From positions 796,683 through 860,682 of the forward strand of contig PGYM01000001.1 in NCBI GenBank assembly GCA_002839675.1: a stretch of 64,000 bases of DNA, written 5' to 3'. This document shows, one piece after another, positions 17,590 through 34,017 of this stretch; the stretch's first letter is position 1; each line of letters begins with the position of its first letter. A program made the translations under genes and the position numbers. Origin of the DNA: Methanomicrobiales archaeon HGW-Methanomicrobiales-1 (GTDB taxonomy: Archaea; Halobacteriota; Methanomicrobia; Methanomicrobiales; Methanospirillaceae). The notes under the pieces were generated by a model. That model saw nothing but the letters and a program-made list of their open reading frames with translations. It ran no database searches and was not told the origin of the DNA.

Positions 17590-18903
17590 CTATCTTGTAT
17601 AGGGATATTTCAGGAGCAACGGTTCTGTATTCCCGCTCGCCAGACGGGATTGTATGATCTGGCAGATCTCGCGTAAACTGATGGGTACATACCCAATCAC
17701 TTCTGCACTCACATTGATTCGCCGCTCTAAAAAATTGATGAAAGGATAATGATGAAGATCATTGTTATGGTGGTGACCATGAATCACCCAGCCCTTGAAA
17801 TCTGCCGGGGCATTTGCGGGATCATGGATCAACAGAAATGAAAATCCCTGGTAATCGAGTTCCGAGCACGGAATTGCATCCAGATCCGTTCCATCATGAT
17901 TCCCGGCAATAAAGGTGATATTGCCCTGCAGTTGTTCACGATAATAATCAGCCACCTGTGCATGGGCCCCATAGCGGAAATCACCCAGGAAATATGCTCT
18001 CCCCGTTTCAGAAATTACAGAATTCCAGTTGGCGATAAGCACGCGGTCCATCTCACCGGGATCGGAAAACAGGAATGGCCGGGAGCAATAACGGATAATA
18101 TTGGCATGACCCAGATGAAGATCTGAAATCACAAACAGGTCATCAGAAGTTTCCGGTTTTCTGTCAGTACGTTCAAATTCCTCTGTGCAGCGATAGTGAC
18201 AGAGCGTTTTTTGCCATGACTGGGAAGAATGGCTGCCCTCTCCAAAGACCCAGCATTTCAATAAAAGATCGTATTCGGCCTCGATCTTTTCTCCGTGCAT
18301 AACGGTAATCCTGAGCCCGGTTTCATCCAGCGTAACCGGCCAGATAATTATCCTGTGTTTCAGGTGCAGGGTTTGTTTCAGCCTTGCCAGAAAACCCGAG
18401 AGTTTTCGAAAGTGTGATCGATCGATGTGGGGAAGAACATCTGCTGATTTTCTAATAACAGAAAAAATATCTGCGGCCTTTTTTAGTTCGAGCCGGTTTG
18501 CCACAGTCACGTGGAACCATTTCTTGTCAGGATATGCATCCCAGCCATTATGGCTCTGGGTAAGGGGAGTAAGGGCATTTGCGAGCAATGCAGTAAGCTC
18601 CCGTAAGGATTCTGAGGATTTTACCGGAAAGGCAATGACACTGCCATGCATGCCCTCACGTTTTTCCCATCCGTCAATCATGAAAGGGATAGGATCAAAT
18701 CCCGATGCAATTTTCCCGATGGTATCAAGGAGTTGTTCCTGACTGATACCGTCATTGAGAGTTAATGGCCCGAACAGGGTTACGTGAGGATGCCGTTCGA
18801 TAAATGGCCCCAGGTGGAATTTCCTACCGATAGCAAAAACTGTCTCTTTTACCCGCCATTTGGTCTTTCCAAGACGGATCTCAATGAGATAGGTATCTTC
18901 CAT
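17590..18903 (-). CDS. Fused 2H phosphoesterase (LigT-like) and calcineurin-like phosphoesterase
   Basis: One chain with two unrelated phosphoesterase domains. The N-terminal part has the paired HxT motifs of the 2H superfamily: HPHVTLFGP, and WFHVTVANR about 90 residues later. The C-terminal part has the full calcineurin-like metal set: SDLHLGHANII, YFLGDF, GNHDGTD and VIHGHHHNN. The 2H family acts on RNA 2',3'-cyclic ends or cyclic nucleotides, and the calcineurin-like family hydrolyses phosphodiesters or monoesters, so a two-step RNA-end or nucleotide reaction is conceivable. The start is ATG 18903 (MEDTYLIEI); a TTG at 18921 is also possible. It stands alone in the neighbourhood. Confidence 0.8.
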   Translation of the reverse strand: MEDTYLIEIRLGKTKWRVKETVFAIGRKFHLGPFIERHPHVTLFGPLTLNDGISQEQLLDTIGKIASGFDPIPFMIDGWEKREGMHGSVIAFPVKSSESLRELTALLANALTPLTQSHNGWDAYPDKKWFHVTVANRLELKKAADIFSVIRKSADVLPHIDRSHFRKLSGFLARLKQTLHLKHRIIIWPVTLDETGLRITVMHGEKIEAEYDLLLKCWVFGEGSHSSQSWQKTLCHYRCTEEFERTDRKPETSDDLFVISDLHLGHANIIRYCSRPFLFSDPGEMDRVLIANWNSVISETGRAYFLGDFRYGAHAQVADYYREQLQGNITFIAGNHDGTDLDAIPCSELDYQGFSFLLIHDPANAPADFKGWVIHGHHHNNDLHHYPFINFLERRINVSAEVIGYVPISLREICQIIQSRLASGNTEPLLLKYPYTR

Positions 18904-19008
18904 GGTCAGGGTTCCGGTCAATATCCTTTTTGATGACGCATTTTTATGTTAACTCTCTGATCAGAAAAATGCCCTGATCAATAATCCTTTGGTTATGGCA
19001 ATACCATT

Positions 19009-19716
19009 ATGGTAGCAATGATAATGCCGGAAATGCAGAAGGGCAGGGAAATAACAACACTCCTCTTCGACATGGATAATACTCTTTTTGATCTGGTCGA
19101 CGCACAGATCGCGTCCTGCCATGCGGTCGCAGAGTTCTTAGGAACTGGAGACGGTGACGCACTGTTTGAGTATTTCCTGCGCCCTGTACGGGGATTTGAA
19201 GCACATGAAAATATTCTCGATTACATGACGGACAACTCGCTCTCTCCGGATAAAATGTATTCAACTGCATGCCGGATTTACGAGACGGAAAAACTCCTTT
19301 CCATTACGCCTTACTCCGGAGTAAAAGAAACGCTTGAACTGCTCCGGCAATCCGGGTACCCGATGGGAATTATCACGGACGCCCATTCGAAGGATGCGAC
19401 CCTCCGTCTTGAAAAAGTCGGGCTTCTCCCGTTTTTCTGTGGCATGGTAACGTCCGATATGGTTGGGGTAAAGAAACCCGCACCTGACCCTTTCCTCTTT
19501 GCCCTTGAGATGATGCGGGCAAAAACCCATGAGGTGCTTTTAGTGGGAGACAGCCTGCGGCGGGATATCGAGCCCTGCAGGCTGCTGGGCATTCGTTCGG
19601 TCTATGCCCGTTATGGTGACCGGTTCTCTGATGCCAAAAGCGCATCTGAAGCAGATTTTACCATCGATGCAATGGATGAGTTGCCCGGAATTATTGCCGG
19701 TCTTGCTTCAAAATGA
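19009..19716 (+). CDS. HAD-family hydrolase (phosphatase)
   Basis: All four HAD motifs are visible: LLFDMDNTLFD (nucleophile Asp), IITDAH, GVKKPAPDPFLF with the Lys, and VLLVGDSLRRDI with the metal Asp. The cap is helical (C1 type), as in pyrimidine 5'-nucleotidase and phosphoglycolate phosphatase relatives. The substrate is not inferable. Several ATGs crowd the start (19009, 19018, 19024, 19033); the one nearest the domain may be used. It is followed after a 140-base spacer by pdaD on the same strand. Confidence 0.85.
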   Translation: MVAMIMPEMQKGREITTLLFDMDNTLFDLVDAQIASCHAVAEFLGTGDGDALFEYFLRPVRGFEAHENILDYMTDNSLSPDKMYSTACRIYETEKLLSITPYSGVKETLELLRQSGYPMGIITDAHSKDATLRLEKVGLLPFFCGMVTSDMVGVKKPAPDPFLFALEMMRAKTHEVLLVGDSLRRDIEPCRLLGIRSVYARYGDRFSDAKSASEADFTIDAMDELPGIIAGLASK

Positions 19717-19858
19717 TTTTTTTGTGGTTGAAGGCTGCCCGGTCAAAAAATCTGAAAGGGCGCGGCAGGATATTTCGCTGACAAAAACCTTTGATTTGAT
19801 GTAATTTGGATTATAATGTCCAAAACTTAAAAAGGGAAACGGATAATATTTTTAAAAT

Positions 19859-20401
19859 ATGTTTGTTCCGACAAAGATCTTTTTCACTAAGGGAGTAGGC
19901 GTTCATAAAGATCATCTCGCTTCCTTTGAGCTTGCTCTGAGAAAGGCCGGGATAGAGAAATGTAATCTTGTGTATGTTTCAAGTATATTCCCTCCCAATT
20001 GCAAACAGGTATCCAGGAAAGAGGGGTTAAATCAACTGCTTCCCGGGGGTATCACGTACTGTGTTATGGCCCGGAACGATACCAACGAGCCCAACCGCCT
20101 GGTCTCTTCAGCAATAGGTCTTGCCCTGCCCAAAGATTCCGAGGAATACGGGTATCTTTCCGAACATCATGCTTATGGGGAAACCCAGGAAAAGACCGGA
20201 GAATATGCCGAAGATCTTGCTGCAACGATGCTGGCTACCACCCTCGGTATTGAATTCGATGTGAATCTTGCCTGGCAGGAACGCGAGCAGATATACAAAG
20301 CAAGTGGCAAGATTATCAAAACAAAAAACACCTGTCAGTCCGCTGAAGGGGACAAAAACGGCCTCTGGACGACAACAATTGCCGTAGCCGTTTTCCTTTA
20401 A
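19859..20401 (+). CDS. pdaD: Pyruvoyl-dependent arginine decarboxylase
   Basis: Makes agmatine from arginine for polyamine synthesis, and in archaea also for modification of tRNA-Ile2. The proenzyme cleaves itself at the Ser-Ser pair in [12 protein letters not shown] to create the pyruvoyl group. The N-terminus [20 protein letters not shown] and the [14 protein letters not shown] segment are typical. The length of 180 residues is somewhat longer than that of the thermophilic enzymes. The ATG at 19859 follows an AT-rich leader with TTAAAAAG about 30 bases upstream. Confidence 0.93.
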
Positions 20402-20423
20402 AACTTTTTTTTAAATATTTTTT
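20402..20423 (+). terminator. Oligo-T terminator after pdaD
   Basis: Two runs of eight T directly after the pdaD stop, separated by AAATA, in the short gap to the convergent operon end. This is the usual form of an archaeal transcription end for the plus strand. Confidence 0.6.
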
Positions 20424-21191
20424 TTAAATGGTTGAATGCTCTTTTGCGAGTGCCCGTATTTTCTCTGCCAGTTCCAGCACGGCAACGCGGGCAGGGCTCC
20501 CAACAGGGATTTGTGAGACCGGTGTTGCAGCAAGATCCGCTGCCTCCACGTTCGGATCATCCGGGAGTAATGCAATAGGAGTTTCCGTACCGATATCGAC
20601 CGGTGCCGTGCCGGTTTTGTACTTATTGAAAACAATATGGATCTTTTCAGGTTCCAACCCGAGCTGGGTGGCAATCTCCCGTATCCGTGAGATTGTTCTC
20701 AGTCCACGGGCACCGGGGTCACTTACAATAAGAAGCATATCGGGTTTTCCTATGGTCCCCCTGCTGATATGCTCCATGCCCGCTTCCGTGTCAATAACAA
20801 TAAAACGATACTCCCGCTCAAGCTCGGTCATGCATTCTGACAGGAGATCGTTTGCAAAACAGTAACACCCGCTGCCTTCCGGTCTCCCCATGGCAACCAG
20901 ATCGAATCCTTCGGCTTCAACAAGTGCCTGCCGGAACCGGAACCGGACATAACCGTGCCGGTTCATACCCGGAGGGATCTTCCGGGTAAATGCCTCCTCG
21001 CGCATACTGCCAAGGGTCTCATGGATGGTCACGCCAAGCGCTTCATGGAGATTTGCATTCGGATCCGCATCTACGGCAAGCACCGGTTTATCCCCGAGTT
21101 CGATGAATGAACGCACGAGCAGGGAACTAAGAGTAGTCTTACCGGTTCCGCCTTTACCGGAAACAACTATCGTGAATGGGTGGTGGAGCAT
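20424..21191 (-). CDS. cooC: CooC/AcsF-type nickel-insertion ATPase
   Basis: SIMIBI-class P-loop ATPase that matures nickel-iron-sulfur clusters of CO dehydrogenase or acetyl-CoA synthase. The deviant Walker A is VVSGKGGTGKTT (residues 9-20), and the nickel-binding CxC of CooC proteins is visible as GCYCFAN (C109, C111). VDADPNANL and IVIDTEAGMEH complete the ATPase. The ATG at 21191 is chosen, 20 bases after the methionine synthase stop; the upstream extension lacks homology. It is last in the acs operon. With no CODH in the operon, its most direct client is AcsB, so AcsF-like is the better functional label. Confidence 0.88.
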   Translation of the reverse strand: MLHHPFTIVVSGKGGTGKTTLSSLLVRSFIELGDKPVLAVDADPNANLHEALGVTIHETLGSMREEAFTRKIPPGMNRHGYVRFRFRQALVEAEGFDLVAMGRPEGSGCYCFANDLLSECMTELEREYRFIVIDTEAGMEHISRGTIGKPDMLLIVSDPGARGLRTISRIREIATQLGLEPEKIHIVFNKYKTGTAPVDIGTETPIALLPDDPNVEAADLAATPVSQIPVGSPARVAVLELAEKIRALAKEHSTI

Positions 21192-21211
21192 AAAAAAACC
21201 TGTCTTTAAGT

Positions 21212-22246
21212 TCAACTGTTTATGGTGTGAACTCGCTTTGAAATTTCCGCGGCAGCCTGCATGATGGAACCGGCAGAGGCGCGATCGGCAAAACGAATGC
21301 CGCAACTCGGCGTGATGAGGGATTGCGCATCGAAGAGATCTTCGGGCATGCGAGCGCAGAGCTGCGTGCGGATATCGAGATATTTCTGGTACAAAGAACC
21401 GTTAGTCTCGGTGACAAAGATCCGAAAATCCGCAGGAACAATGCCCCATGCCACAACCCCGCCCCGTTCCATATAGCCGGTGATGGTATCAGCGTACAGC
21501 AGGAATTCCTTTGCCGTTGTATAGGCATCGATGGAGACAACCGAAGGATTGAGTCCCAGGACAAATTCCCAATCCGTATTCGAGCAGCAGTGGATGCCGA
21601 GGCCTCCTTCTACCAGCGATGCGATATCTTCCCAGCCGGCTTTCACCGTCTCCTTGTCAACAGGCACGACCGAAGACCCAAGGGACGCAAGATAGGGTTC
21701 ATTGAGAACGATTAAGGTCTCTTTCACTCCGGTCTGCTTTTGCATCTCGACTTCACACCAGCGGGCTTTTAAGGCCAGCATCTTTGCCAGCACATCGGCG
21801 AGCTGGCTGTCGTAATAGATCGGGCGCTTGTCTGCGTCTACGACCTGCATGCCAAACGTGACCGGACCGGTTACCTGGAATTTCAATATACCGGTATTGG
21901 CGAGATCGCGCGTCATCATCTCGGAAAATGCTGAGGCATAGTCCTTGTGCAGGGCATAAGGAGTGAAATTCTGTTCAACATAATCCATGTATACCTGTTC
22001 CATTGCTGCGGTCTGGTCGGTGGTGCTGTCAAAGAGGAGACGGTCATCGCGAATAATCCTCCCGGGCAACTGTTCGGAGTCGTTAAAGACGATACTCTCC
22101 AGTTGTCCCCGGTCGGGTAATGTGGGGATGTAGGGAAAGGAGGGAAAGATTTCCAAAACATCGTTGCATGCTTCGCGGGGATCCTTGTGGGGGAGGGCAC
22201 CGACACCGGTTGCCTGTGAATGGGGGGAAGTGATCATCTTTGCCAT
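21212..22246 (-). CDS. Core methionine synthase-like methyltransferase (MesB-type candidate)
   Basis: A UROD/MetE-fold protein of 344 residues, matching 'core' methionine synthases that lack the folate-binding half of MetE. Zinc ligands of the MetE C-terminal domain are in place: H219 and C221 in GIHCCSN, and C315 in TPSCGIRFA. The fourth ligand position may be D240 (SIDAY) instead of Glu. Known of the family: core enzymes take methyl groups from corrinoid proteins, and the MesB family is predicted to use the CoFeSP of the Wood-Ljungdahl pathway. Position 3 bases behind RACo and downstream of both CoFeSP genes fits that prediction directly. An alternative is a methyl transfer to another thiol, such as coenzyme M. 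Confidence 0.75.
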   Translation of the reverse strand: MAKMITSPHSQATGVGALPHKDPREACNDVLEIFPSFPYIPTLPDRGQLESIVFNDSEQLPGRIIRDDRLLFDSTTDQTAAMEQVYMDYVEQNFTPYALHKDYASAFSEMMTRDLANTGILKFQVTGPVTFGMQVVDADKRPIYYDSQLADVLAKMLALKARWCEVEMQKQTGVKETLIVLNEPYLASLGSSVVPVDKETVKAGWEDIASLVEGGLGIHCCSNTDWEFVLGLNPSVVSIDAYTTAKEFLLYADTITGYMERGGVVAWGIVPADFRIFVTETNGSLYQKYLDIRTQLCARMPEDLFDAQSLITPSCGIRFADRASAGSIMQAAAEISKRVHTINS

Positions 22247-22249
22247 TTT

Positions 22250-24151
22250 TCACTCCTTTGCAATCCGGCAGGTATCCAGCAGTTTCTGGACCATGGGAAA
22301 GAGCGTCAGGTCCGTATGGGGCAGGAATGTGCTGGAGGTGTACTCATCCATGAATGACGACTCGGCATTCAGCTCGATATAGGCAATCCGGCAGGCAATC
22401 TCATCAAGGGTCTTTCTCTTTCTCCGGTTGATGAGTGCAATATTGGCCCCGGTTACTGCACCGTTGCCGATATTGATAATCCGGTCGATGCCTATCTCCG
22501 GTATCAGGCCAATGATGGTGGCATTCTTCTTGTTGATGTAATTGCCAAATGCCCCGGCAAAATAGATGGTGGTAATTTCCCGGTGGGTAATGCCGGCCTG
22601 TTTCATCAGGGTCAGGCAGGCCGCATGCACCGATGCCTTGCTCATGATCAGGTTTTTGATATCATTTTCTGTTATGACAATATCTTTTCCCAGATCGGTT
22701 TCAGCTGCCCAGGCAACAACAAATTCGGGGAAGTGACCGTTAGTCCGTATCCGTGGGTTGGCTATACCGGTGTTGATCCTGCCGGTGCGGTCGATGACAC
22801 AGGTGCAGAGAAGTTCTGCGAGGAGGTCGATAAGGCCGGATCCGCAGATGCCCCGGGGTTTGATGCCATTGATCGTGGAATAGACCGGGTTGAGCGTGCC
22901 CGGATCGAGCGTCAGTTTCTCGATAGCCCCCGGGTTTGCCCGCATGCCAAATAGTACCTCGCCACCTTCAAGAGCGGGGCCGGCTGCGCCCGCACACGAG
23001 AACATCCACTCGTTATTGCCAAGCACGATTTCAAAATTGGTACCAATATCGATCAGGAGGGAGATCTCTTCTCTCTCACCCATGCCGCAGGTGAGAATAT
23101 CGGCTATGATATCGCCACCGATAAAGTCGCTTACCGCGGGGAAAACAAAGAGCCCGCCGTTTTTATTGCAGGCAATGCCGATCCTGCCCGTAGCCACCGA
23201 AAGTGCCCTGCGGACTACCGGGACATAGGGTTCTGCGATCATGTATGCCGGATCGATGCCAAGCAGCATATGAGTCATTACGGTATTTCCTGCCACAACC
23301 ACTTCGTAGATATCCTCCCGGTCGACTCCTGCGGTATTGGATGCCGAAGTGATCGCAGTGTTGATACTCTCGGTCGCCAGTGCCTGGAGTTTGTTAAGCC
23401 CGTTCTTACGGGCAAAATTTACGCGGGCTAAAATATCCTCGCCGCAACTGATCTGGCGGTTATAATTCGATGCAATCCCGGCAATTTTGCCGGATACAAG
23501 ATCCCAGAGGTACACGACAATTGTTGTAGAACCAAGGTCAACTGCTGCACCATAGAGTCTTTTGGAGGTATCATTTTCCTGCAGGTCCACAAGACGGTAT
23601 CCTCCCGGTACAAGAGAGACTGTGCCGGTTGATTTCCATTCGGCATGGCGCAGGATTGCCGGGATTTCCCTGAGCACTTCCAATGGCACATACATCTTTT
23701 CAGCGGCCGGACCCCCGCTTTTCTGGATGCCCCAGAGCAGACGGGAAAGGTCCGGTGAAGGATCGGAGAGTGTGGGGGGCTGGAGTTCCACGTAATATTT
23801 CCTGACAGACGGGTGAAATTCAATGGCAGTATCCTGGCCTTCGATGAGGATCTTCTGTTCCTGTATCAACGTGCTCTCGGGAATAAACACCTGCAGATCA
23901 CTATCGATCGTTGTCTCGCAGGCAAGGCAGGCACCCCGTTTGAGTTCATCTTCGGTAATAAACCGCCCGTATTTTTGCGCATCAAAGCTAGTCTTTCCCG
24001 ATTGGACATACACTACACATTTCCCGCATTTCCCCTGGCCCCCGCAGACAACGTTGATGTTCAGCCCGGCCCGCTGGGCCGCATCGAGGATAGTGCTGCC
24101 CCGTGCGATCTCGATCTTGCGATACCCGGGGAGGAACGTGACGGTCCGCAT
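22250..24151 (-). CDS. RACo: ATP-dependent reductive activator of the corrinoid iron-sulfur protein
   Basis: It re-reduces inactive Co(II) in CoFeSP to Co(I) using ATP. The N-terminal 2Fe-2S ferredoxin domain has C36-x4-C41-x2-C44 and a fourth cysteine at 75 or 78. After a linker, the ASKHA ATPase domain (about 215-580) shows GAAVDLGSTTIVVYLWDL, LLIDIGTNFEIVLG and the GICGSGLIDLLAELL segment. The length of 633 residues is that of acetogen RACo. It starts immediately at the cdhE stop with no gap. The methanogen corrinoid activator RamA is a different, ferredoxin-fused type, so this is the bacterial solution. Confidence 0.9.
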   Translation of the reverse strand: MRTVTFLPGYRKIEIARGSTILDAAQRAGLNINVVCGGQGKCGKCVVYVQSGKTSFDAQKYGRFITEDELKRGACLACETTIDSDLQVFIPESTLIQEQKILIEGQDTAIEFHPSVRKYYVELQPPTLSDPSPDLSRLLWGIQKSGGPAAEKMYVPLEVLREIPAILRHAEWKSTGTVSLVPGGYRLVDLQENDTSKRLYGAAVDLGSTTIVVYLWDLVSGKIAGIASNYNRQISCGEDILARVNFARKNGLNKLQALATESINTAITSASNTAGVDREDIYEVVVAGNTVMTHMLLGIDPAYMIAEPYVPVVRRALSVATGRIGIACNKNGGLFVFPAVSDFIGGDIIADILTCGMGEREEISLLIDIGTNFEIVLGNNEWMFSCAGAAGPALEGGEVLFGMRANPGAIEKLTLDPGTLNPVYSTINGIKPRGICGSGLIDLLAELLCTCVIDRTGRINTGIANPRIRTNGHFPEFVVAWAAETDLGKDIVITENDIKNLIMSKASVHAACLTLMKQAGITHREITTIYFAGAFGNYINKKNATIIGLIPEIGIDRIINIGNGAVTGANIALINRRKRKTLDEIACRIAYIELNAESSFMDEYTSSTFLPHTDLTLFPMVQKLLDTCRIAKE

Positions 24152-25486
24152 TTATTGCTTCCACTCCTCGTGCAGGTACTCCCCTATTTCGGCAGCGTCC
24201 CGTGGACCGACTAACACTTTCCACCCGGTTGCCTCTTCAATCCTTCCCGAAAGTGGGGATGCGTAGCCCGGTATGATAAGTTTCCGGTGAGATACCTCGT
24301 CTTCGACTGCGAATTTCTTTATCGAATCCCGTACCAGTATCTCGCTCAGTTTTCCTGCGGCAACGGCTGTCAGTACCGAGAGCCCCTCCGTGTCGACAAT
24401 CAGCATGAAGCAGGGCATACGGGTGGATTCGAGATAGCCCTGCAGGGTAAAGAACGTGAGGGAAAAGTTCACAGTCATCAGGACGGGTGCATCTTTTCCC
24501 GGGTTACCCACGCGGTACAGGCCCGGGTTCATCTGGATGGGTTTCTGGGGATCGGTGTAAATATTCTGGCGCAGGGTCAGGACGGCTTTTGTCGTTGCCG
24601 GGGGAAGGGGAGTGGAAACGATCACGGCAGCATATTTTGCTATGCCTAAGGTAATTGCCGCATCCTGTTGATCCATGACAGAAGCATCGAGAAATACCGG
24701 GTACCCGAGATCGGGGGCTTCCCGGGTGATAGCAAGCTGGCGTACCGTGGTAGAACGGACAATAAATGCCTGCAATGATTCCGGAGAAAGATCCAAAATG
24801 AGGTCCTGCACGCCATCAGCCGTGCAGTCTTTTGCCAGTAACACGAGTTCTTCGATTGTTTTACCCCGGATTGCCAGCGGGCACCCGTGCTGTTTTGCCA
24901 GGGTACAGAGTTCCTTGCGGTTCTCCTGCGTTGCCGCATGGATCAGGGGGCGGTAGGTACCACAATGGGCCAGGGCTGCTGAAAGGGCTGTTGTGTCCGT
25001 TGCCATCAGTATGAGTGGCAGGTCGGCAGTTTTTTCAACGGTCTCGACAGCCCGGGCAAACTGTTCGGGAGAGCCGCTGGCATTTTCTATCGCAATCCCG
25101 TTAAACCGGAGATCCGCTCCCACCCGGGTAAATGACTCGTCCCGGACACGCGCTGTTACTGCTGAAATCTCATCAGGACTCAGCGTGTCGCTAATCTTAA
25201 ACAATATACCCGGGGGGTGATAGAACGTCTTTTCGTGACGGTAGAGTACAAACTCTTCACCAACAGCAAAGGACCGTTCCCCGATTCCGAGCTTCACAAG
25301 CCTGATTGGCGGGCGTGTCGTTGCACCCAGCACAGCTTTGGCAGCATCATCCAGGTAGGGACAGAGGTCCACATCCGCTTTGCCCCCGGCAAGTTTCATG
25401 GCAAATGTAAGGCAGGTGGGGTCACCGCATTCCTTGCAGTTTTTCTTGGGCAGGAGTTTGTAGATGTCGAGTGCCTTGAGCGCCAT
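24152..25486 (-). CDS. cdhE: Corrinoid iron-sulfur protein large subunit (CdhE/AcsC)
   Basis: Large subunit of CoFeSP, which carries the 4Fe-4S cluster and the cobamide that shuttles the methyl group to acetyl-CoA synthase. The cluster motif is C17-x2-C20-x4-C25-x16-C42 (KNCKECGDPTC near the start). The TIM-barrel middle and the B12-binding C-terminal domain follow. At 444 residues it matches bacterial AcsC. It lies 1 base after the small subunit and directly before RACo. Confidence 0.93.
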   Translation of the reverse strand: MALKALDIYKLLPKKNCKECGDPTCLTFAMKLAGGKADVDLCPYLDDAAKAVLGATTRPPIRLVKLGIGERSFAVGEEFVLYRHEKTFYHPPGILFKISDTLSPDEISAVTARVRDESFTRVGADLRFNGIAIENASGSPEQFARAVETVEKTADLPLILMATDTTALSAALAHCGTYRPLIHAATQENRKELCTLAKQHGCPLAIRGKTIEELVLLAKDCTADGVQDLILDLSPESLQAFIVRSTTVRQLAITREAPDLGYPVFLDASVMDQQDAAITLGIAKYAAVIVSTPLPPATTKAVLTLRQNIYTDPQKPIQMNPGLYRVGNPGKDAPVLMTVNFSLTFFTLQGYLESTRMPCFMLIVDTEGLSVLTAVAAGKLSEILVRDSIKKFAVEDEVSHRKLIIPGYASPLSGRIEEATGWKVLVGPRDAAEIGEYLHEEWKQ

Positions 25487-25487
25487 G

Positions 25488-26444
25488 TTATGTTTCCCCC
25501 CCGGTAGTTTTTCCGGTATTCAGGCTGGAAAAAGCTTTCCTGAGCAGGGGAATAGTCCGTGGATGCCGCACACAGATAATCTCTGCACCCGCTGCCGCAG
25601 CGGCAAGACCGGTAGTGAATTCCCACTGGACCGCAATATCGTCCTGGATCGCCGGGTCTGCCTCACGCACTTCCTTTGCGGTCAGTGTGTCAATCGCAGA
25701 ACAGATGAGTGGCATGGCAAGATCGGCATCGCCTTTCAACGCAGCAAACCGGATCCGCTCCATGGCAGAATAGGAATATTCAAAGCCATACCCCAGCGAG
25801 CCGGTGTAGGGATCGATGATGATATGGTCCCGGGTTACGCCAATCTCCTTTAACAGGATGTTGAGCTGTTTTGCCAGGTTGACATCTATCGGGGACTGGG
25901 CTATTACCGAATGACCGTAAGCCATGGCTGCAGCAGCGATACTGCGGTACCTGCCTGCCTCAGCCGTTCCTAAAAGCAGGTGTTCACCCTGGCCGGTCTC
26001 CCCGCATTTTAAGAACACCTCGCTGTCAATTTTCGGTTCATTGCTTCCCTCTATGATGAGAGGCAGGCTTGTTGCAGAGAGCACGGTCTCTACGTTCTTT
26101 CCCACCGATGCCATATCGGAAAAATCCCGTTGCCGGGTGCTGGTCAGGAACAGGCGGACAATATCTGCCTTGTAGACCGTATCTGCTGCATGTGCCCAAC
26201 TCCCGCAATCATTTACGAGATCCCCGCAAAAGGCCTGGACAATCGGGGACCAGTACTGCGGGTTATCGCAAATCTCATAGGCTATGAGTGGAGCGGGTGA
26301 GTCCGGGATTGTCTCAAGGAACGGGAGTGTTTTTCCTCCCCCAATCCGGTAGGAAATGCGGCGGGTTCCCCCTTCTGCTTTTGTTGCACCGAGAGTCACT
26401 TCGGTTACGGATCCACTCCAGTCAAATTTCAGGTCAAATCCCAT
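25488..26444 (-). CDS. cdhD: Corrinoid iron-sulfur protein small subunit (CdhD/AcsD)
   Basis: Small CoFeSP subunit, a TIM barrel that pairs with CdhE. Typical segments: MGFDLKFDWSGSVTEVTLG at the start, LPLIIEGSNEPKIDSEVF, and IIIDPYTGSLGYGFEYSYS. The length of 318 residues equals bacterial AcsD; archaeal CdhD is usually about 100 residues longer. This is one of several signs that the operon is of the bacterial type. It starts 7 bases after the acsB stop. Confidence 0.92.
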   Translation of the reverse strand: MGFDLKFDWSGSVTEVTLGATKAEGGTRRISYRIGGGKTLPFLETIPDSPAPLIAYEICDNPQYWSPIVQAFCGDLVNDCGSWAHAADTVYKADIVRLFLTSTRQRDFSDMASVGKNVETVLSATSLPLIIEGSNEPKIDSEVFLKCGETGQGEHLLLGTAEAGRYRSIAAAAMAYGHSVIAQSPIDVNLAKQLNILLKEIGVTRDHIIIDPYTGSLGYGFEYSYSAMERIRFAALKGDADLAMPLICSAIDTLTAKEVREADPAIQDDIAVQWEFTTGLAAAAAGAEIICVRHPRTIPLLRKAFSSLNTGKTTGGET

Positions 26445-26451
26445 GATGGCA

Positions 26452-28482
26452 TCACACCAGCGGTTTCATGGTCAGGGCCGGGTGTTTTATTTTCTCAAGA
26501 TATACCATGAGATCTTCGATTGTGGCTGCCGTTGTCTCATCTGCGATCTTTTCAAACAGGTCAGGTTTGCCCCGTTCAGCCAGTATTTTTATCAGCCGGG
26601 GTTTGAGTTCTTCTTTGAGTTGTGCGGGTATCCAGACGAGCCGTTCGATACCCCCCTCTCCCTGTAAGAACCGGTCTGAAAGAATGTAGCCTTTGGATAT
26701 TCCCGCAAACCCGGGGGTCTGTGCACCGCCGCCGATGGTACCGGCAAGGGTAGAAAATGACATTCCCGAAGGAGTCAGCCCTTTGAATTCACGGTTCACC
26801 ACCATGATCCCGTTCACTTCCGGCAGCATCAGGGCAATGCATTCAAAACACCCGCAGCAGGTCATCGGGTATTCCATCACACTGTAGAGTGAGCACCGGT
26901 CCACTTCCCCGTGACTGGCTTTCTTGACAAAGCGGTTGACGCCTTCGAATTCACCATTCTGGGCATTGAGTTCCTGGCCTTTCTCTATCGGCTGGTTCGC
27001 TCCGGATGGCGATATTTCATACGCGATCTTGCCATCCAGCCAGCTGATGGCCCCGCACAGGGCGGGCCGTTCGGGAGTGATCACGCAGACGTGGTTCGGT
27101 GCAAAGGTCTGGCAGAGCGTGCAGGAATAATAGGTGTTTACATCACTGTCACGCATGCCCTTGATACGGGCGTCGCGTTCATCATAGACCTGGTCTGCCT
27201 CCTTCTTTGCCGCCAGGACTTTTTCCTTATCCGTGATCAGCGTGACCGAGACGGCATCCAGTAACTGGGGAAAATCCATACGGAACTTGCTGGCCAGCAG
27301 TTTGCCGATATGCTCGATCTTCACGCCTTTTGCAACAACTTCTTTCGATAACCGGACCCAGATGAGATCCCGCTGGGCAACGTGCCATGATCCTTCGCCA
27401 TAATTGACAAAATTATGAATCCTTCGTTCGAGCACCGGCTCGTAATCTTTTTTCATGGTTTTACCGGCAACATCAATAATAATTGCGAGCGGATTTGCGG
27501 ATCCTTCTGCCATGGAATCGATCTCTGGGCCGATGACGGTTACCTGTCCGTCTTTGACCTCTCCGGTATTTTTCATCCGGAGCAGTTCGAATGCAGGTGA
27601 CCTGCCGCCACCAAACTCCACGTACATCTCTTCTTTGCGGATGCTTTTTCCTTCAAAGGCAGGGGAGCATCCCATCGGGATCGGGATTGCGGTCACGGTG
27701 ACACGAATGCCTTTTGATTCCATGCCGATCCGGACAACATCATCAGCAGTAGCCGGGATCCATGCGCCGCCGGAATAATCATCGAGTGACAGGATGGGAA
27801 ATCCGAGCACCCGCATACCATCGACAAGGGCGATCTCTTCATCGGAAAGCCCCGGAAAGACGATCACAATTGCCTTTGCCCGCTCCGCTGCATAGGTCAG
27901 CAGCCGGTGCATGTCGCCCGGGGTGACTCCCCCAAACATCATCGCTACGCGGGCAATGATATCGACAAAGTGCACCCCATGAAGCGTGCTGGATCCAAGG
28001 GGGATTAGGCGATAATCGAGACCCAGTTTTACACCGGCAGACGATAATGAAGGCACGACCGGGCCGGCAAGAAACGTGAGCATATATTTTTCCTGGAGTT
28101 CGCGGCAGATCGCAGCAGCAGCACCGGCACTCCGGGGGTTTCCGACAATGAGGGCAAGGCCGAGAATACTGCCGTCAACAAGGGAGTACCCGAGTTTCCG
28201 GATAATTGTATCGCCAATAAAACCGGTATAGGGCGAGGCCTCTTTTCCCTCCTGTGCGGTCTTTTTTGCAAGAATTATTTCTGAGGCAACCAGTGAATTC
28301 TCCTTTGTCCGGGAAAAAACATCCAGCAGGGTATCGCGGTCATGCACCGGTATGCCGGTCAGGGCATAAGATATGGGAAGATGATAAGCGGTATCGTCAT
28401 AGGAAAATGTTCCTTCAATTGTCGTTATCGCGGTTTTTAAATGGAGTTGTCCATTTTTTATTGCCAACTCAACGTCGGTCAT
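26452..28482 (-). CDS. acsB: Acetyl-CoA synthase, bacterial-type AcsB
   Basis: Makes or cleaves acetyl-CoA from methyl, CO and CoA at the nickel A-cluster. A-cluster cysteines are visible: C454, C457, C466 and C476 (YYSCTLCQTFAPNHVC, then ERPALCGA), and the C543-Gly-C545 pair that holds the distal nickel. The protein is 676 residues and keeps the N-terminal domain (about 1-260, PYTGFIGDTIIRKLGYSLVDG), which in acetogens docks on CODH. Archaeal CdhC lacks that domain and is about 470 residues. It is the first gene of a six-gene operon with a strong GAGGGA ribosome site 8 bases before the ATG. No CODH gene is nearby. Confidence 0.95.
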   Translation of the reverse strand: MTDVELAIKNGQLHLKTAITTIEGTFSYDDTAYHLPISYALTGIPVHDRDTLLDVFSRTKENSLVASEIILAKKTAQEGKEASPYTGFIGDTIIRKLGYSLVDGSILGLALIVGNPRSAGAAAAICRELQEKYMLTFLAGPVVPSLSSAGVKLGLDYRLIPLGSSTLHGVHFVDIIARVAMMFGGVTPGDMHRLLTYAAERAKAIVIVFPGLSDEEIALVDGMRVLGFPILSLDDYSGGAWIPATADDVVRIGMESKGIRVTVTAIPIPMGCSPAFEGKSIRKEEMYVEFGGGRSPAFELLRMKNTGEVKDGQVTVIGPEIDSMAEGSANPLAIIIDVAGKTMKKDYEPVLERRIHNFVNYGEGSWHVAQRDLIWVRLSKEVVAKGVKIEHIGKLLASKFRMDFPQLLDAVSVTLITDKEKVLAAKKEADQVYDERDARIKGMRDSDVNTYYSCTLCQTFAPNHVCVITPERPALCGAISWLDGKIAYEISPSGANQPIEKGQELNAQNGEFEGVNRFVKKASHGEVDRCSLYSVMEYPMTCCGCFECIALMLPEVNGIMVVNREFKGLTPSGMSFSTLAGTIGGGAQTPGFAGISKGYILSDRFLQGEGGIERLVWIPAQLKEELKPRLIKILAERGKPDLFEKIADETTAATIEDLMVYLEKIKHPALTMKPLV

Positions 28483-28523
28483 GGTAAAAGTCCCTCGGAT
28501 ACAACGTATTCTTTGTAATATTG

Positions 28524-28535
28524 ATATACTTTCGT
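28524..28535 (-). promoter_or_regulatory. TATA-like box of the acs operon
   Basis: On the minus strand the string GAAAGTATATCA lies about 45 bases before the acsB ATG, the right distance for an archaeal promoter with a short leader. The 160-base gap to the divergent surface gene holds both promoters. Confidence 0.5.
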
Positions 28536-28590
28536 TATAAGGTAACAGGAAAAAAAATACCTGCTTTACGGCTCTGCAGCCGGTAATAAC

Positions 28591-28602
28591 AAAAATATAT
28601 AT
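28591..28602 (+). promoter_or_regulatory. TATA box of the surface protein gene
   Basis: AAAAATATATAT lies 40-50 bases before the ATG at 28642. It is divergent to the acs operon promoter. Confidence 0.55.
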
Positions 28603-28641
28603 CCCTTTTAAATGCTATTCTCTTTAATGAGAGGCCAGAAA

Positions 28642-29730
28642 ATGAGCATTGTGCGAATTAACAAGGTTTTTTCCATTCTTGTGCTGCTGATTGCAGCAAT
28701 CTGTATGTTCCAGCCGGTGATGGGTGCCGATGGAACCGTAAGCATAGCGTACCGGGGTTCCGGTGGCAGCTACATTGGCGATACGGTGATTTTAGATGGT
28801 CAGAATACTGCCGGTAATATTACCTTTCTCCGGATCACCGGCCCCGGTCTTCCCTCCGAGGGTGTCCCCATATATGATCTCAATGGGAAACCCGGATCGG
28901 GAAATTCCGTTGAAGTAAATCCTGATGGTACCTGGAAGATTGCATGGTATACATCGAACATTAAAGCCGTTGAAAAGATGCAGACCGCACGCTACTATGT
29001 TACTGCTGCTGACCTCACTCACCCTGAAATATCTTCAACAACTTCATTAGTCATGAAAAAAGCTGAATTTTATGCGAAAACCACGCCGAATCCAGCAACA
29101 ACGGATGACTATGTATCGATAACCGGTTCATCCGAACGCGGAGTGTCTTATGTCCAGATTGATGTGACCGACAGTTCCGGTAAAATTTATCATACCTACA
29201 CATCGCCAGTTAGTGGTTCCGGATATTTCAATTATGGTTTCCATGTTGACATGCAACCCGGCCAGTATTTTGTCCGGGTGAGCAATCCGGCGATAAAAAT
29301 CCCTCTCCAGATGGATCTTACCATCGCCTCGCCACAAGCATTGATTTCAGCGAACACGACCCCGGGAATTATTCCCGTCAGTGTAGCAACGCCAGCTATG
29401 AACCCGGTTGCGCTTCCCCAGAATCTACCCGGTACAGGGACACTCACCCTTGCATCAACGCCAACAGGAGCTTCAGTATTCCTCGATTCGGTAATGATGG
29501 GAACTACACCGATGGATTTGAACAACCTGCCTTCCGGCAGCCACCTTATCGAGTTAAAAACACCCGGATACCAGCCCTATTCTCTTCAGGTTACTCTCAC
29601 CGATGGTGCCCGGGTTACCCTGTCGCCGATTCTCCAGAAAACTCCCTCAGCAATCCCGCTTTCACCCGTGACAGTACTTATCGGGCTTATCATTACCGGT
29701 GCAATCGCCCTGATATGGCGAAGAATGTAA
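28642..29730 (+). CDS. Secreted/surface protein with PEGA domain and C-terminal membrane anchor
   Basis: A signal peptide (hydrophobic stretch ending near VMGADG) leads into two Ig-like repeats of the kind seen in methanogen DUF3821 surface proteins. A PEGA domain follows (GTLTLASTPTGASVFLDSVM, then LPSGSHLIELKTPGYQPY), then a proline-rich spacer and a C-terminal transmembrane helix ending in WRRM. It is predicted to be anchored outside the cell. ATG 28642 is chosen because GAGG lies about 10 bases upstream; a start at 28612 would put 10 extra residues before the signal peptide. Confidence 0.8.
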   Translation: MSIVRINKVFSILVLLIAAICMFQPVMGADGTVSIAYRGSGGSYIGDTVILDGQNTAGNITFLRITGPGLPSEGVPIYDLNGKPGSGNSVEVNPDGTWKIAWYTSNIKAVEKMQTARYYVTAADLTHPEISSTTSLVMKKAEFYAKTTPNPATTDDYVSITGSSERGVSYVQIDVTDSSGKIYHTYTSPVSGSGYFNYGFHVDMQPGQYFVRVSNPAIKIPLQMDLTIASPQALISANTTPGIIPVSVATPAMNPVALPQNLPGTGTLTLASTPTGASVFLDSVMMGTTPMDLNNLPSGSHLIELKTPGYQPYSLQVTLTDGARVTLSPILQKTPSAIPLSPVTVLIGLIITGAIALIWRRM

Positions 29731-29739
29731 AAACTAATA

Positions 29740-29760
29740 ATCTTTTTTTTAAAGATATTT
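29740..29760 (+). terminator. Terminator after the PEGA surface protein gene
   Basis: ATCTTT, T-run, AAAGAT: a short self-complementary element with a run of eight or more T ten bases after the stop codon. Confidence 0.5.
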
Positions 29761-29809
29761 TTACCATAACCTATATCGATTTTAACAGTAACTTGTACTG
29801 GCATAACCG

Positions 29810-31333
29810 GTGATTTCCGTGAAGAAATTTTCTTTTATTGCTCACATGCCCGACACTCCTGGATCCCTGCACCGTGCAGCCGAGATCATCAAGCAATATG
29901 ACGGGAATATCAATCGTATACAGTTTGACCGGCGCATAGATTCCGGGACCGTTTTTTACGAAGTTACCGCCCCGGCCGAATCCTATACCCAGATTACCCG
30001 GAATCTCGAAGAGATCGGGTATCTCCAGAGCACCATAAAACCCCAGAGTTTCTTAAAGTTCTGCGTATACCTGACCCACCGCCCGGGAGCCCTGTATGAA
30101 TTCCTGGGCCTGACCACGGCAGTTGGCGCAAATATCTCGTTTCTGGATTTCGATGACAAAAGCCGGCACCCGGATCGCCTTATGGTGAGCCTGAACCTGG
30201 AACAGGGTGCAGTAGTCGAACAGTTGCTCAACCAGTTAAAATCCCTGTACCGGCTGGATATTATCGAGTACGATACCACGGGAAAACAACTGGATGATAC
30301 CATCTTTTACGTCCGGTACGCCCAGGCAATCCGTGAGCTTATCGGGGAATCGGAAGATACATTCCTGCTCTCGTTCCTTGCCGATACCAACCATATGGCC
30401 CAGGAACTGATGGACCGGGGGTGCGATCCCAAAAAAGTTTTTGAGAGCGTGCTTGCATCCGGCCAGACAATGAAAGCGACCACGGGAGAGCATTTTTACG
30501 CGGATATCCAGCAATTTCAGATCGATGCCCGCACGACCTTGTTCTGCTTCCAGGTGCCCTGCGGGGGGAATATCTTCCTGATACAATCCGGAGAAGAACT
30601 GCTGATGATCGATACCGGGTACGGGATCTACCATAATGACGTCTTGACGATGTTCTCCCGGTATGGTATCAAGGATGCAAAAAAGATCGGCCGGATTGTT
30701 ATTACCCACGCCGATGCAGATCACTGCGGTGCTGCCGGGTTCTTTACTGCACCGGCGCTGATGCACAGCAGTACGCTCGAGATCATCCGGACAAATAACC
30801 GGGCCTATGGCTCCCGCAGCGATCACGCTTCCCTTGATGAATTCTATACCAAGATGATCAACCTGTTCTCGAAATTCAACACCCCGGAAAAGACAGAATG
30901 CATTTCCGCCCCGCAAGGTGCAACCCGCGGTATATTTCCTGTCATCGGTGCAGTCAAGATTGGCGATATTGAACTGGAGATACTCGATGGTCTCAGCGGG
31001 CATACCGCCGGACAGGTGTTCCTGTACTCCCGTGAATATGGCCTGCTGTTTCCTGCCGACAGCGTGATAAATTTTGCAAGCCTTTCAAAAGAACGGGCAG
31101 ACTACAGTTCCCTTGCGGCATTTCTCGTGACCTCGGTCAATGTTGACAGTGACAGTGCAAAAAAGGAACGAAAAGGACTTTCTGACCTGGCACAGGTAAC
31201 GGATGACTATCTTGCCGCTTCCGGAAAAAGGTGCCTGATCTGCGGGGGGCACGGTGCCGTATCCGTACTGGAAAACGGCAAACTTACGGTGACCGGATCG
31301 ATTGAACGGTATGGAGCAGGGAAATCCGGATAA
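29810..31333 (+). CDS. ACT-ACT-metallo-beta-lactamase fusion protein
   Basis: 507 residues. The first 160 hold two ACT-like domains (FIAHMPDTPGSLHRAAEII and CVYLTHRPGALYEFLGL are the characteristic starts). These are amino-acid-binding regulatory modules. The C-terminal MBL domain has an intact metal site: ITHADADHCGAAG, GLSGHTAGQVFLYS, FPADSV and GGHGAV. This suggests an MBL hydrolase or redox enzyme under allosteric control by a small ligand. The start is GTG at 29810 (MISVKKF) or the GTG three codons on. No operon partner. Confidence 0.75.
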   Translation: MISVKKFSFIAHMPDTPGSLHRAAEIIKQYDGNINRIQFDRRIDSGTVFYEVTAPAESYTQITRNLEEIGYLQSTIKPQSFLKFCVYLTHRPGALYEFLGLTTAVGANISFLDFDDKSRHPDRLMVSLNLEQGAVVEQLLNQLKSLYRLDIIEYDTTGKQLDDTIFYVRYAQAIRELIGESEDTFLLSFLADTNHMAQELMDRGCDPKKVFESVLASGQTMKATTGEHFYADIQQFQIDARTTLFCFQVPCGGNIFLIQSGEELLMIDTGYGIYHNDVLTMFSRYGIKDAKKIGRIVITHADADHCGAAGFFTAPALMHSSTLEIIRTNNRAYGSRSDHASLDEFYTKMINLFSKFNTPEKTECISAPQGATRGIFPVIGAVKIGDIELEILDGLSGHTAGQVFLYSREYGLLFPADSVINFASLSKERADYSSLAAFLVTSVNVDSDSAKKERKGLSDLAQVTDDYLAASGKRCLICGGHGAVSVLENGKLTVTGSIERYGAGKSG

Positions 31334-31371
31334 TTTATTTCCGGTTTTTTCCCGTGCCCATCCATTCCCGG

Positions 31372-32199
31372 TCAATAGTTGGTAACGATAATTTCAAAAA
31401 TTCCGTTCCGGCGTTTCCCGTTACAATTGATGTAACGTTTTGCTTCAACGGGTTGTATCGTGAATTCCCGGTACAGGTCTTCGATAACCGGGTTCAGTGA
31501 ATTACTGAGCATCACAAAAACTCCCCGCTTATCGAGTTTTTTAAACAGATCCGCCAGTCGTTCCTGGTCCTGGAATTTGAAACCATTTGAATTATAATCG
31601 GTAAAACGTGCAGTTTTTGATATGGGGTGGTAAGGAGGATCGAAATATATGAAATCATTTTTTCCGGCTTTTTTAACGGTCTCAGCAAAATCCTTGTTTA
31701 ATATGGTAACATTTTCAAGCATGGCGTGAAATTTTAAAATCGAGGTCTCCGTTGGAAGACTCAGTTTTGCATGGCGGCCGAATGGGACATTATATTTTCC
31801 TTTGTTGTTTACCCGCCATAATCCATTGTAGCTGTGTTTATTGAGATATACCAAAAAAGCTGCCCGCTTCACCGGTTCTTTTGTCGTGCCGATGATCTCA
31901 TTAAAATCGGCTTTAATCTGTTTGAAGGTAATCTCATCATTCTGAAAAACAGGATCCTGCAACTCTTCAATCAATTGTTCAGGTTTTTTCTGGACTACCC
32001 TGTACAGGTTGATCAGTTCACCGTTGAGATCGGAAATTACTGCCTTATCTGCCCGGTGTTCATTGTGCAGTTTTACCAGTAATGCTCCACCGCCAATGAA
32101 AGGTTCAAAGTAGGTATCCCATTCATGGGGAAGCCGTTCTCCTAACTTATCCAGTAACTGCCGTTTTCCACCCGCCCATTTCAGCAACGGTGTAATCAC
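31372..32199 (-). CDS. dam: DNA adenine N6-methyltransferase, Dam (D12 class)
   Basis: D12-class methylase of the Dam/MboI type. The SAM site is PLLKWAGGKRQLLDKL at the N-terminus with YFEPFIGGGALL, and the catalytic DPPY lies in DFIYFDPPYHPISK. The target is probably GATC, inferred from the family. There is no restriction endonuclease beside it, so it looks like an orphan methylase. It may play a part in regulation, protection or mismatch-repair strand choice, although the MutL here is the nicking type and MutH is absent from the window. Confidence 0.88.
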   Translation of the reverse strand: MITPLLKWAGGKRQLLDKLGERLPHEWDTYFEPFIGGGALLVKLHNEHRADKAVISDLNGELINLYRVVQKKPEQLIEELQDPVFQNDEITFKQIKADFNEIIGTTKEPVKRAAFLVYLNKHSYNGLWRVNNKGKYNVPFGRHAKLSLPTETSILKFHAMLENVTILNKDFAETVKKAGKNDFIYFDPPYHPISKTARFTDYNSNGFKFQDQERLADLFKKLDKRGVFVMLSNSLNPVIEDLYREFTIQPVEAKRYINCNGKRRNGIFEIIVTNY

Positions 32200-32295
32200 A
32201 TCTACCCATTTTTTATTACTAATACTTAAGGGGTATTCAGGCTTATACTACGAAATTCTCATCTACTATGCAATAGCATCTTGTGTGGGAGAAGT

Positions 32296-32895
32296 ATGGA
32301 GAGCCACAGGGTACAGGAAATGATGCGGCTGATGGCATCGAAGATCCGCTCAATTGCCAATACCATTTCAGACGATGATATCGGGAAGTTCATCACCGAA
32401 CTCTTAAACGCAAAACGCATTTACGTGATCGGGGCAGGACGGTCCGGGCTCGTGGCAAAAGCGTTTGCCATGCGCCTCATGCACCTCGGGTTCCATGCCT
32501 ACGTTGTCGGAGAGACCATCACTCCTGCACTGAACAAGGGTGACCTGATGGTCATCTTTTCCGGTTCGGGCAGGACCAAGACCGTTGCTGACCTTGCAGA
32601 AACCGCAAAGGATATCGGCGGAAGAATCTGCCTTATCTCGTCAAATGCAGATTCGCGTATCGGAAAAATAGCGGATTGCATTGTTATCATTGAGCATCAC
32701 CGGGATTCCGTTGAAAACGATGCAGTCGAATTTGAGATCCGGCAGATGATGGGCGAACACAAATCATTTGCCCCGTTGGGCACCCTGTTTGAAACGGTAT
32801 CCATGATCTTTGCCGATGCAGTGGTGTCACGCCTCATGGAGATCACCAAGACCGACGAGAGTGCGCTCAAGAACCGGCATACGAATATTGAATAA
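32296..32895 (+). CDS. hxlB: 6-phospho-3-hexuloisomerase (Phi)
   Basis: SIS-domain isomerase that interconverts fructose 6-phosphate and hexulose 6-phosphate. In archaea lacking the oxidative pentose phosphate pathway it works in reverse to make ribulose 5-phosphate. Signatures are VIGAGRSGLVAKAFAMRLMHLG and VIFSGSGRTKTV. ATG 32296 is preferred over the TTG at 32281, with GGGAG a few bases upstream. The aminotransferase follows after 14 bases. The partner hexulose-phosphate synthase is not in the window. Confidence 0.9.
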   Translation: MESHRVQEMMRLMASKIRSIANTISDDDIGKFITELLNAKRIYVIGAGRSGLVAKAFAMRLMHLGFHAYVVGETITPALNKGDLMVIFSGSGRTKTVADLAETAKDIGGRICLISSNADSRIGKIADCIVIIEHHRDSVENDAVEFEIRQMMGEHKSFAPLGTLFETVSMIFADAVVSRLMEITKTDESALKNRHTNIE

Positions 32896-32909
32896 AATGG
32901 TGGATTGCG

Positions 32910-34016
32910 ATGAGTATGAAATTTGCAGAAAGGGTAAAAGATATCGAGATCTCGGGGATTCGTAAATTGTTCGAGGCCGCGGGTCCCGATTCCATTAACC
33001 TCGGGCTCGGGCAACCCGATTTTGATACGCCCGGGCATATCAAGGATGCTGCAATCCGGGCCATACAGGAAGGAAAGACCGGGTATACCGGCAACAACGG
33101 CATTCCTGAACTCCGTAATGCGATCAGTGCAAAATTCAAACGGGAGAACGAACTCTCTTACAAGCCGGCCCAGATCATCGTTACTGCCGGTGCAAGCGAA
33201 GCGCTCCATATCGTGATGCAGGCCATGGTCGGCGATGGAGACCGGGTGCTCTGCCCGGATCCGGGTTTTGTATCGTATGCATCCCTTGCCACTCTCGCGG
33301 GTGCTCACCCGGTCAGTGTTCCTCTCACGAAAGATTTACACCTCGATGTGGAAAAGGCCAAGGAACTGATGGACGGGGCAAAACTTTTTGTCATCAACTC
33401 CCCGGGAAACCCGACCGGGGCTGTCGAGAGCAAAGAATCCATCAAAGCCCTTGTTGAATATGCTGATGATGCTGGTGTAACCATCATCTCCGATGAGGTG
33501 TACGAGCATTTCATTTACGGCAAAAAGCATTGGAGCGCCGGCCAGTTCGGGGATAATGTCATTACCATCAATGCGACGAGCAAGACCTACGCGATGACCG
33601 GCTGGCGCCTTGGTTACCTTGCTGCCTCCCCCGAGATTATCAGCCAGTGCATCAAGGTGCACCAGTACTGCCAGGCATGCGCCACTTCCATTTCCCAGTA
33701 TGCGGCAGTTGCGGCATACGAGGGAGACCAGCACCCCGTTTCGGTGATGCGGGATGAATACCAGGCCCGGCGGGATCTCTTCTGCAAAGGATTGTCTGCC
33801 CTCGGTCTGGACTTTCCGCTTCCCGAAGGTGCATTCTATGCGTTTGTGCCGATGCAACCTGCGCTTACCCAGAAAATAATTGATGCCGGTGTAGTGATCG
33901 TCCCGGGCTCTGCGTTTGGGGTCAATGCGCCGGAGTACGCCCGCATGAGTTACGCCAACTCGCGGGAGAACCTGAAGCGTGCCCTTGATAGGATCCAAAA
34001 AGTAATAGGTGATTAA
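32910..34016 (+). CDS. Class I/II aminotransferase (aspartate/aromatic type)
   Basis: PLP enzyme of fold type I, 368 residues. It has INLGLGQPDFDTPGHI near the start, the NSPGNPTGAV substrate loop, and the PLP lysine in NATSKTYAMTGWRLGY, followed by the arginine-bearing ARMSYANSRENL segment. The group includes archaeal aspartate and aromatic aminotransferases, and specificity cannot be read. It is in a probable operon with hxlB upstream and the M42 peptidase, whose start it nearly touches. Confidence 0.88.
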   Translation: MSMKFAERVKDIEISGIRKLFEAAGPDSINLGLGQPDFDTPGHIKDAAIRAIQEGKTGYTGNNGIPELRNAISAKFKRENELSYKPAQIIVTAGASEALHIVMQAMVGDGDRVLCPDPGFVSYASLATLAGAHPVSVPLTKDLHLDVEKAKELMDGAKLFVINSPGNPTGAVESKESIKALVEYADDAGVTIISDEVYEHFIYGKKHWSAGQFGDNVITINATSKTYAMTGWRLGYLAASPEIISQCIKVHQYCQACATSISQYAAVAAYEGDQHPVSVMRDEYQARRDLFCKGLSALGLDFPLPEGAFYAFVPMQPALTQKIIDAGVVIVPGSAFGVNAPEYARMSYANSRENLKRALDRIQKVIGD

Positions 34017-34017
34017 C

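Follow-up and report, generated by a model that had tools for sequence, protein, structure and literature searches.

We find that a six-gene operon in Methanomicrobiales archaeon HGW-Methanomicrobiales-1 unites a bacterial-type acetyl-CoA synthase (ACS; AcsB), both subunits of the corrinoid iron-sulfur protein (CoFeSP) and a MesB-like core methionine synthase, and that this cassette is inherited as a unit among its relatives, including some that encode no detectable carbon monoxide dehydrogenase (CODH). The operon lies in a window of 64,000 nucleotides (contig PGYM01000001.1, positions 796,683 to 860,682), the whole stretch of DNA analysed here. It is the operon, not the organism, that is CODH-less. 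We read the cassette as a CODH-optional ACS-CoFeSP-MesB methyl-transfer module that would probably carry acetyl-CoA to methionine and CO, a reading to which we assign a probability of roughly 0.45.

The six open reading frames (ORFs) lie on the minus strand, between 28482 and 20424, in the order acsB-acsD-acsC-RACo-mesB-cooC, separated by only 7, 1, 0, 3 and 20 bases, and these ORF limits reproduce the layout given in a preliminary description of this DNA. The gene identities proposed there also hold, by Pfam and NCBIfam for AcsB, CoFeSP, RACo and the ATPase, and by fold and zinc ligands for the MesB-like protein. AcsB scores 915.8 bits against NF040764 (CODH_ACS_al_bet; curated cut-off, 800), matches ACS structures at E 1e-191, and possesses the N-terminal domain that CdhC lacks, which aligns with those structures; its assignment to the bacterial type is therefore upheld. 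The CoFeSP small subunit, AcsD/CdhD, reaches 345.5 bits with NF003376 (cut-off, 280) and the gamma-type large subunit, AcsC/CdhE, 551.6 bits with NF003195 (cut-off, 306). All four Pfam domains of the 2Fe-2S and ASKHA set (linker, middle, C-terminal and ferredoxin) are found in the RACo protein, whose best NCBIfam match is AcsV at 551.9 bits, under the strict cut-off of 800 for that model. The cysteines picked out earlier are intact and invariant among homologues: Cys454/457/466/476/543/545 of the AcsB A-cluster, Cys17/20/25/42 of the CoFeSP large subunit, Cys36/42/45/78 of the RACo ferredoxin, and Cys109-x-Cys111 of the MinD/ParA-type CooC/AcsF ATPase (56 sequences). ORF, Pfam and NCBIfam analysis finds no CODH subunit, no cdhB and no acsE inside the six-gene operon, in line with the earlier report that CODH, cdhB and a methyl-pterin:CoFeSP methyltransferase are missing from it.

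The 344-residue MesB-like protein has no match in Pfam or NCBIfam, Pfam being blank over 42 homologues as well, and no sequence match in the PDB, profile search included. Its AlphaFold2 model (pLDDT 94.6) is closest in Foldseek to cobalamin-independent methionine synthases (MetE, E 4.1e-8), the single-domain MesD 3RPD among them, while uroporphyrinogen decarboxylases come next with 7.5e-5, weaker by some three orders of magnitude; no coenzyme M methyltransferase appears among the best 50 matches. Judged by its length and these fold matches, the protein is a single MetE-like catalytic domain without the folate domain. The zinc ligands H219, C221, D240 and C315 are present in 63 of 63 distinct sequences, and their pattern, His-x-Cys followed by Asp at +21 and Cys at +96, has nearly the spacing of Dehalococcoides mccartyi MesB, in which the last Cys falls near +97 (PMC7857596). 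The CoFeSP subunits AcsC and AcsD, by which MesB is also recognized, are encoded in the same operon. The preliminary description's core methionine synthase-like protein is thus borne out by both fold and ligands.

The comparison across the order covers 159 Methanomicrobiales genomes, each at least 85% complete and mostly metagenome-assembled genomes (MAGs). Bacterial-type full-length AcsB occurs in 75 of these and the MesB-like protein in 75; both are found in 74, each alone in one and neither in 83 (Fisher p = 1.8e-43, shared ancestry ignored). The two exceptions are fragmented assemblies, 85% and 89% complete. Gene order is identical in all fetched loci whose contig spans the cassette, with median gaps of 10, 1, 0, 3 and −4 bases, and since it recurs in each relative with a long enough contig, the arrangement is not chance. 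Mean AcsB divergence is about 30%, and divergence between pairs of carriers is correlated among all six proteins (r = 0.80–0.93).

CODH follows a different pattern. Among the 75 carriers, 34 encode CdhA, 28 encode CooS only (a few of them partial, at contig ends) and 13 have neither, which shows that the cassette does not need CODH. Single absences in MAGs may be assembly gaps, and the argument leans on near-complete genomes: four of the 13 are at least 98% complete, namely G037 (one contig, 99%), G057 (about ten contigs, 99%), G049 (about 60 contigs, 99%) and G153 (about 30 contigs, 98%). Over the 159 genomes, presence of the cassette is unrelated to that of CooS (p = 0.74) and weakly associated with that of CdhA (p = 8e-6, relatedness ignored). 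The 13 CODH-free carriers and the lack of association with CooS argue that the reduction of CO2 to CO lies outside the function of the cassette. AMP-forming acetyl-CoA synthetase is above cut-off in all nine genomes checked, the host and eight CODH-free carriers. Eight CODH-free relatives have one strong PF00809 match each, and no AcsE-like methyltransferase was seen.

The host itself is another matter. We searched its genome (2.47 Mb, five contigs, 97.7% complete; nearest relatives, Methanoregula) family by family and find cdhA (1159.6 bits; cut-off, 781), cdhB (likewise above its cut-off), cdhC, cdhD and cdhE clustered at 1058.4–1069.2 kb of contig C1, where another RACo gene and a pair of CooC-like genes also lie, as well as a CooS-type CODH (680.8 bits; cut-off, 478) beside a CooC-like gene at 137 kb of contig C2, and a predicted MesA (PRK00957, 399.2 bits; cut-off, 258). 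The preliminary description had pictured a CODH-less archaeon that uses acetyl-CoA for methionine; that picture fails for this genome, in which a complete archaeal CODH/ACS operon and a second methionine synthase, both named in advance as telling against it, are predicted from the genes. CODH independence survives as a property of the 13 CODH-free carriers, not of the host. The check for acsE that it had recommended yields no AcsE-like protein in the host, where the sole PF00809 match above cut-off is a DHPS beside folD. At about 21–22.5 kb of contig C5 (locus L108), glyA-, folD-, DHPS- and cofE-like genes adjoin, named by eye except for DHPS; these neighbors suggest that the host may possess a folate-type C1 branch.

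The cassette holds what methyl transfer between acetyl-CoA and a thiol needs: AcsB, CoFeSP, a reactivase, a nickel-insertion ATPase and a zinc enzyme of the MetE fold. CODH and AcsE, both of which the bacterial synthetic Wood-Ljungdahl pathway needs, are missing from it. In the mechanism that we propose, for which the Dehalococcoides route described below is the simplest model, acetate would be converted to acetyl-CoA by the AMP-forming synthetase and cleaved by AcsB at the A-cluster, and the methyl group would pass to CoFeSP, with RACo re-reducing its inactivated cobalt and CooC/AcsF supplying AcsB with its nickel. From CoFeSP, the methyl group would then pass to the MesB-like zinc enzyme, which would methylate homocysteine to methionine, while the leftover CO would escape or, where CooS or CdhA is present as in the host, be oxidized. 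The analysis demonstrates the content and order of the genes, the integrity of the catalytic residues, co-inheritance and independence of CODH; that CoFeSP hands its methyl group to MesB, that homocysteine accepts it and that the flow runs from acetyl-CoA to methionine is what we infer.

Several observations weigh against this reading. MesA (PF01717) is found in 156 of the 159 genomes, so that the proposed route would be redundant and MesB is not demonstrated as the only methionine synthase of any carrier; methyl-tetrahydromethanopterin (methyl-H4MPT), moreover, is plentiful in methanogens. The archaeal acetyl-CoA decarbonylase/synthase (ACDS) is believed to methylate its CoFeSP from methyl-H4MPT without AcsE, and the cassette CoFeSP might do the same. 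The cleavage of acetyl-CoA with release of CO is energetically unfavorable except where CO is kept at a very low level. The host has a full CODH/ACS, and the cassette there could run in either direction. Methanogens are said to draw the methionine methyl group from methyl-H4MPT (PMC7005905). Finally, the positions at which MetE contacts homocysteine through Ser and Asp are mostly changed in the MesB-like proteins, to Ala17 and Asn182 in the window protein; over the 63 sequences, position 17 is Ala in 65%, Gly in 17% and Ser in 16%, and position 182 is Asn in 79% and Asp in 10%. These Ser and Asp contacts are "mostly conserved" in MesB and do not serve Price et al. as a criterion of the family (PMC7857596).

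The CO alcove of Moorella ACS is formed by G145, I146, V149, F229 and F512, and the N-terminal domain and alcove let bacterial ACS use micromolar CO (PMC11321310). Four of these five residues are identical and invariant in the cassette AcsB (G98, V102, F183 and F460). The position of Ile146 is taken by Tyr99, and Tyr is found in 79 of 79 cassette AcsBs; the alignment is ungapped here, which makes the assignment firm. Among solved bacterial enzymes, those of Moorella and Clostridium autoethanogenum have Ile at this position and the C. hydrogenoformans-type chain (6ytt/6yua) has Val, and on account of this Val the position is not strictly defining for AcsB. A bolder proposal, that CODH-free Methanomicrobiales run ACS backwards, placing the acetate methyl in methionine and venting CO from a Tyr pocket reshaped for its release and not its capture, strikes us as rather unlikely.

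The alternative that survives best, and which we consider a real if lesser possibility, is that the cassette serves as another CODH/ACS, of bacterial type, and runs towards synthesis, with CO supplied in trans by CooS, CdhA or the surroundings, methyl groups entering from methyl-H4MPT via CoFeSP, AcsB producing acetyl-CoA, and MesB only tapping methyl-CoFeSP to form methionine. CdhA and/or CooS in 62 of the 75 carriers, the host included (a few CooS being partial), would provide for this, and AcsB has kept its N-terminal domain along with the larger part of the CO alcove (cf. PMC11321310). The cassette CoFeSP also lies about as near to archaeal CdhD/CdhE as to a bacterial counterpart, and the same near-equal distance from a bacterial homologue and from the host's own qualifies the earlier idea of a bacterial acquisition, which fits the architecture of AcsB but finds no such backing in CoFeSP. 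A further point for the synthetic direction is a cooS-cooC pair that lies about 2 kb downstream on the same strand in three genera (L094, 12860–14974; L095, 10170–12116; L096, 5801–7756), separated from the cassette by a small ORF on the opposite strand and by a membrane protein. Set against it are the CODH-free carriers together with the absent CooS association, the failure to find AcsE, and Tyr in place of the alcove Ile or Val throughout, and it leaves unexplained why mesB accompanies acsB in 74 of 75 carriers. CooS as the obligate partner of the cassette is rejected by the 159-genome comparison, although the two are neighbors in those three genera.

That the MesB-like protein uses another thiol, such as coenzyme M, with the cassette linking acetyl-CoA or methyl-CoFeSP to some other methyl pathway, is improbable. 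MesA is already encoded in nearly all genomes, the two homocysteine-contact positions are mostly changed, and the methionine-synthase models of Pfam and NCBIfam miss the protein, all of which would suit a different acceptor; the top fold matches are nonetheless all cobalamin-independent methionine synthases, 3RPD included, coenzyme M methyltransferases are absent from the best 50, and the zinc-ligand spacing is that of MesB (PMC7857596). That the cassette is a redundant relic of gene transfer and now idle, for which the patchy distribution (75 of 159) and the overlap with MesA and cdhABCDE could speak, is very improbable in view of catalytic residues that stay invariant at this AcsB divergence, a fixed gene order and ORFs intact in CODH-free hosts.

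The precedent for acetyl-CoA-dependent methionine formation is D. mccartyi, in which the acetate methyl reaches methionine via AcsB, CoFeSP and a core MetE without AcsE, and CO leaves (PMC7005905, with Zhuang et al. as cited there; PMC7857596). The likeness to this module that the preliminary description had drawn is real: each unit combines AcsB, CoFeSP and a MesB-type core methionine synthase, with neither AcsE nor CODH. The cassette differs in being one six-gene operon in an archaeon, and whereas the D. mccartyi genome has no CODH or other methionine synthase, the host has CdhA-E, CooS and MesA. For some methanogens, Price et al. (2021) report that mesB shares an operon with acsC and acsD; they also report MesA together with MesB in some Methanomicrobiales, and propose that MesB takes its methyl group from CoFeSP. 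The gene family and linkage are probably those of the cassette. The text of that paper treats the carriers as Wood-Ljungdahl organisms and does not state the membership of acsB, RACo and cooC or the existence of CODH-free carriers (PMC7857596).

The acetogen acs operon (Acetoanaerobium, with the Moorella and Clostridium autoethanogenum structures) has in common with the cassette an AcsB of full length that includes A-cluster and alcove, as well as CoFeSP, RACo and CooC, but contains the CODH AcsA and the methyltransferase AcsE (AcsE in Acetoanaerobium by position and size), lacks MesB and has Ile or Val in the alcove. The host ACDS (cdhABCDE) is homologous in its beta, gamma and delta subunits (45%, 34% and 32% identity) and likewise comes with a RACo, but its CdhC is without the N-terminal domain, and its operon encodes CdhA and CdhB while MesB is missing. 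Acetyl-CoA decarbonylase/synthase was absent from two of the three Methanomicrobiales studied by Anderson et al. in 2009 (PMC2686161), and a paper on a Methanoregula symbiont takes its genes as ordinary CODH/ACS (PMC10579272). The mesB/acsC/acsD linkage, the coexistence of MesA and MesB (Price 2021) and the Dehalococcoides chemistry were known beforehand; strict six-gene co-inheritance, CODH-free archaeal carriers and the fixed Ile-to-Tyr change in the AcsB alcove are new here. The literature searched yielded no description of the six genes as one cassette or of their presence without any CODH, and no report of methionine labelling in Methanospirillum; many subscription papers lay beyond that search, and novelty is not proven.

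Outside Methanomicrobiales, a distant MesB (about 32%) occurs in one genus only of a phylum sample. Profile scans detect no relatives of AcsB and MesB in viral contigs, and a tblastn search of plasmids matched only Acetoanaerobium, which served as the bacterial control (L111). The record concerned, NZ_CP154629.1, is a 2.63 Mb Acetoanaerobium noterae sequence listed as a plasmid that carries the acs operon and is most likely a chromosome. In some Methanoregula, acsC and RACo are parted by a gene that looks foreign and splits the otherwise gapless operon (L043, 14357–17287; L025, 5731–6744; L078, 7257–8273); by eye, these genes encode a 680-residue sensor-like protein with a phosphatase-like end, on the opposite strand, or a secreted thioredoxin-like protein, and the missing methyltransferase is not among them.

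Around the operon, Rfam detects no riboswitch or other known RNA element from 18000 to 36000, the sole match being a tRNA-Arg. About 14 kb from the corrinoid-dependent cassette, a tight plus-strand operon at 929–6091 is devoted to the biosynthesis of cobalamin (corrin ring) and encodes CbiG, CbiD and four tetrapyrrole methylases. A MoxR-type AAA ATPase and a DUF58 protein lie at 40346–43311 beside genes without assigned function, and the large ORFs at 47522–49441 and 61839–63635 have no Pfam match.

Table 1 Features of the cassette and its upstream region, in window coordinates
Feature	Position	Strand	Description and basis
acsB	26452..28482	-	676 aa, bacterial-type acetyl-CoA synthase including the N-terminal CO-alcove domain; NF040764, ACS structures
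acsD/cdhD	25488..26444	-	CoFeSP small subunit; PF03599, NF003376
acsC/cdhE	24152..25486	-	CoFeSP large subunit (corrinoid, 4Fe-4S); PF03599 and PF04060, NF003195
RACo-type reductive activator of CoFeSP	22250..24151	-	2Fe-2S ferredoxin and ASKHA; PF00111, PF17650, PF17651, PF14574
mesB-like core methionine synthase	21212..22246	-	344 aa; fold match and zinc ligands H219, C221, D240, C315
cooC/acsF-type nickel-insertion ATPase	20424..21191	-	start set at 21191; PF01656/PF13614, CxC
Divergent intergenic region, 129 bases	28483..28611		presumed operon promoter; ORF limits

ACS is usually considered together with CODH, and the cassette ties it instead to a methionine-synthase-like enzyme, even where every CODH is missing. 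For the annotation of Methanomicrobiales genomes, this means that acsB, acsC and acsD are no proof of a working Wood-Ljungdahl fixation of CO2, as 41 of the 75 carriers are without CdhA. Tyr99 of the cassette AcsB is a ready target for CO-affinity tests, and two questions are opened for testing in methanogens: whether ACS can act as a stand-alone archaeal acetyl-CoA decarbonylase, and what role MesB may play beside MesA.

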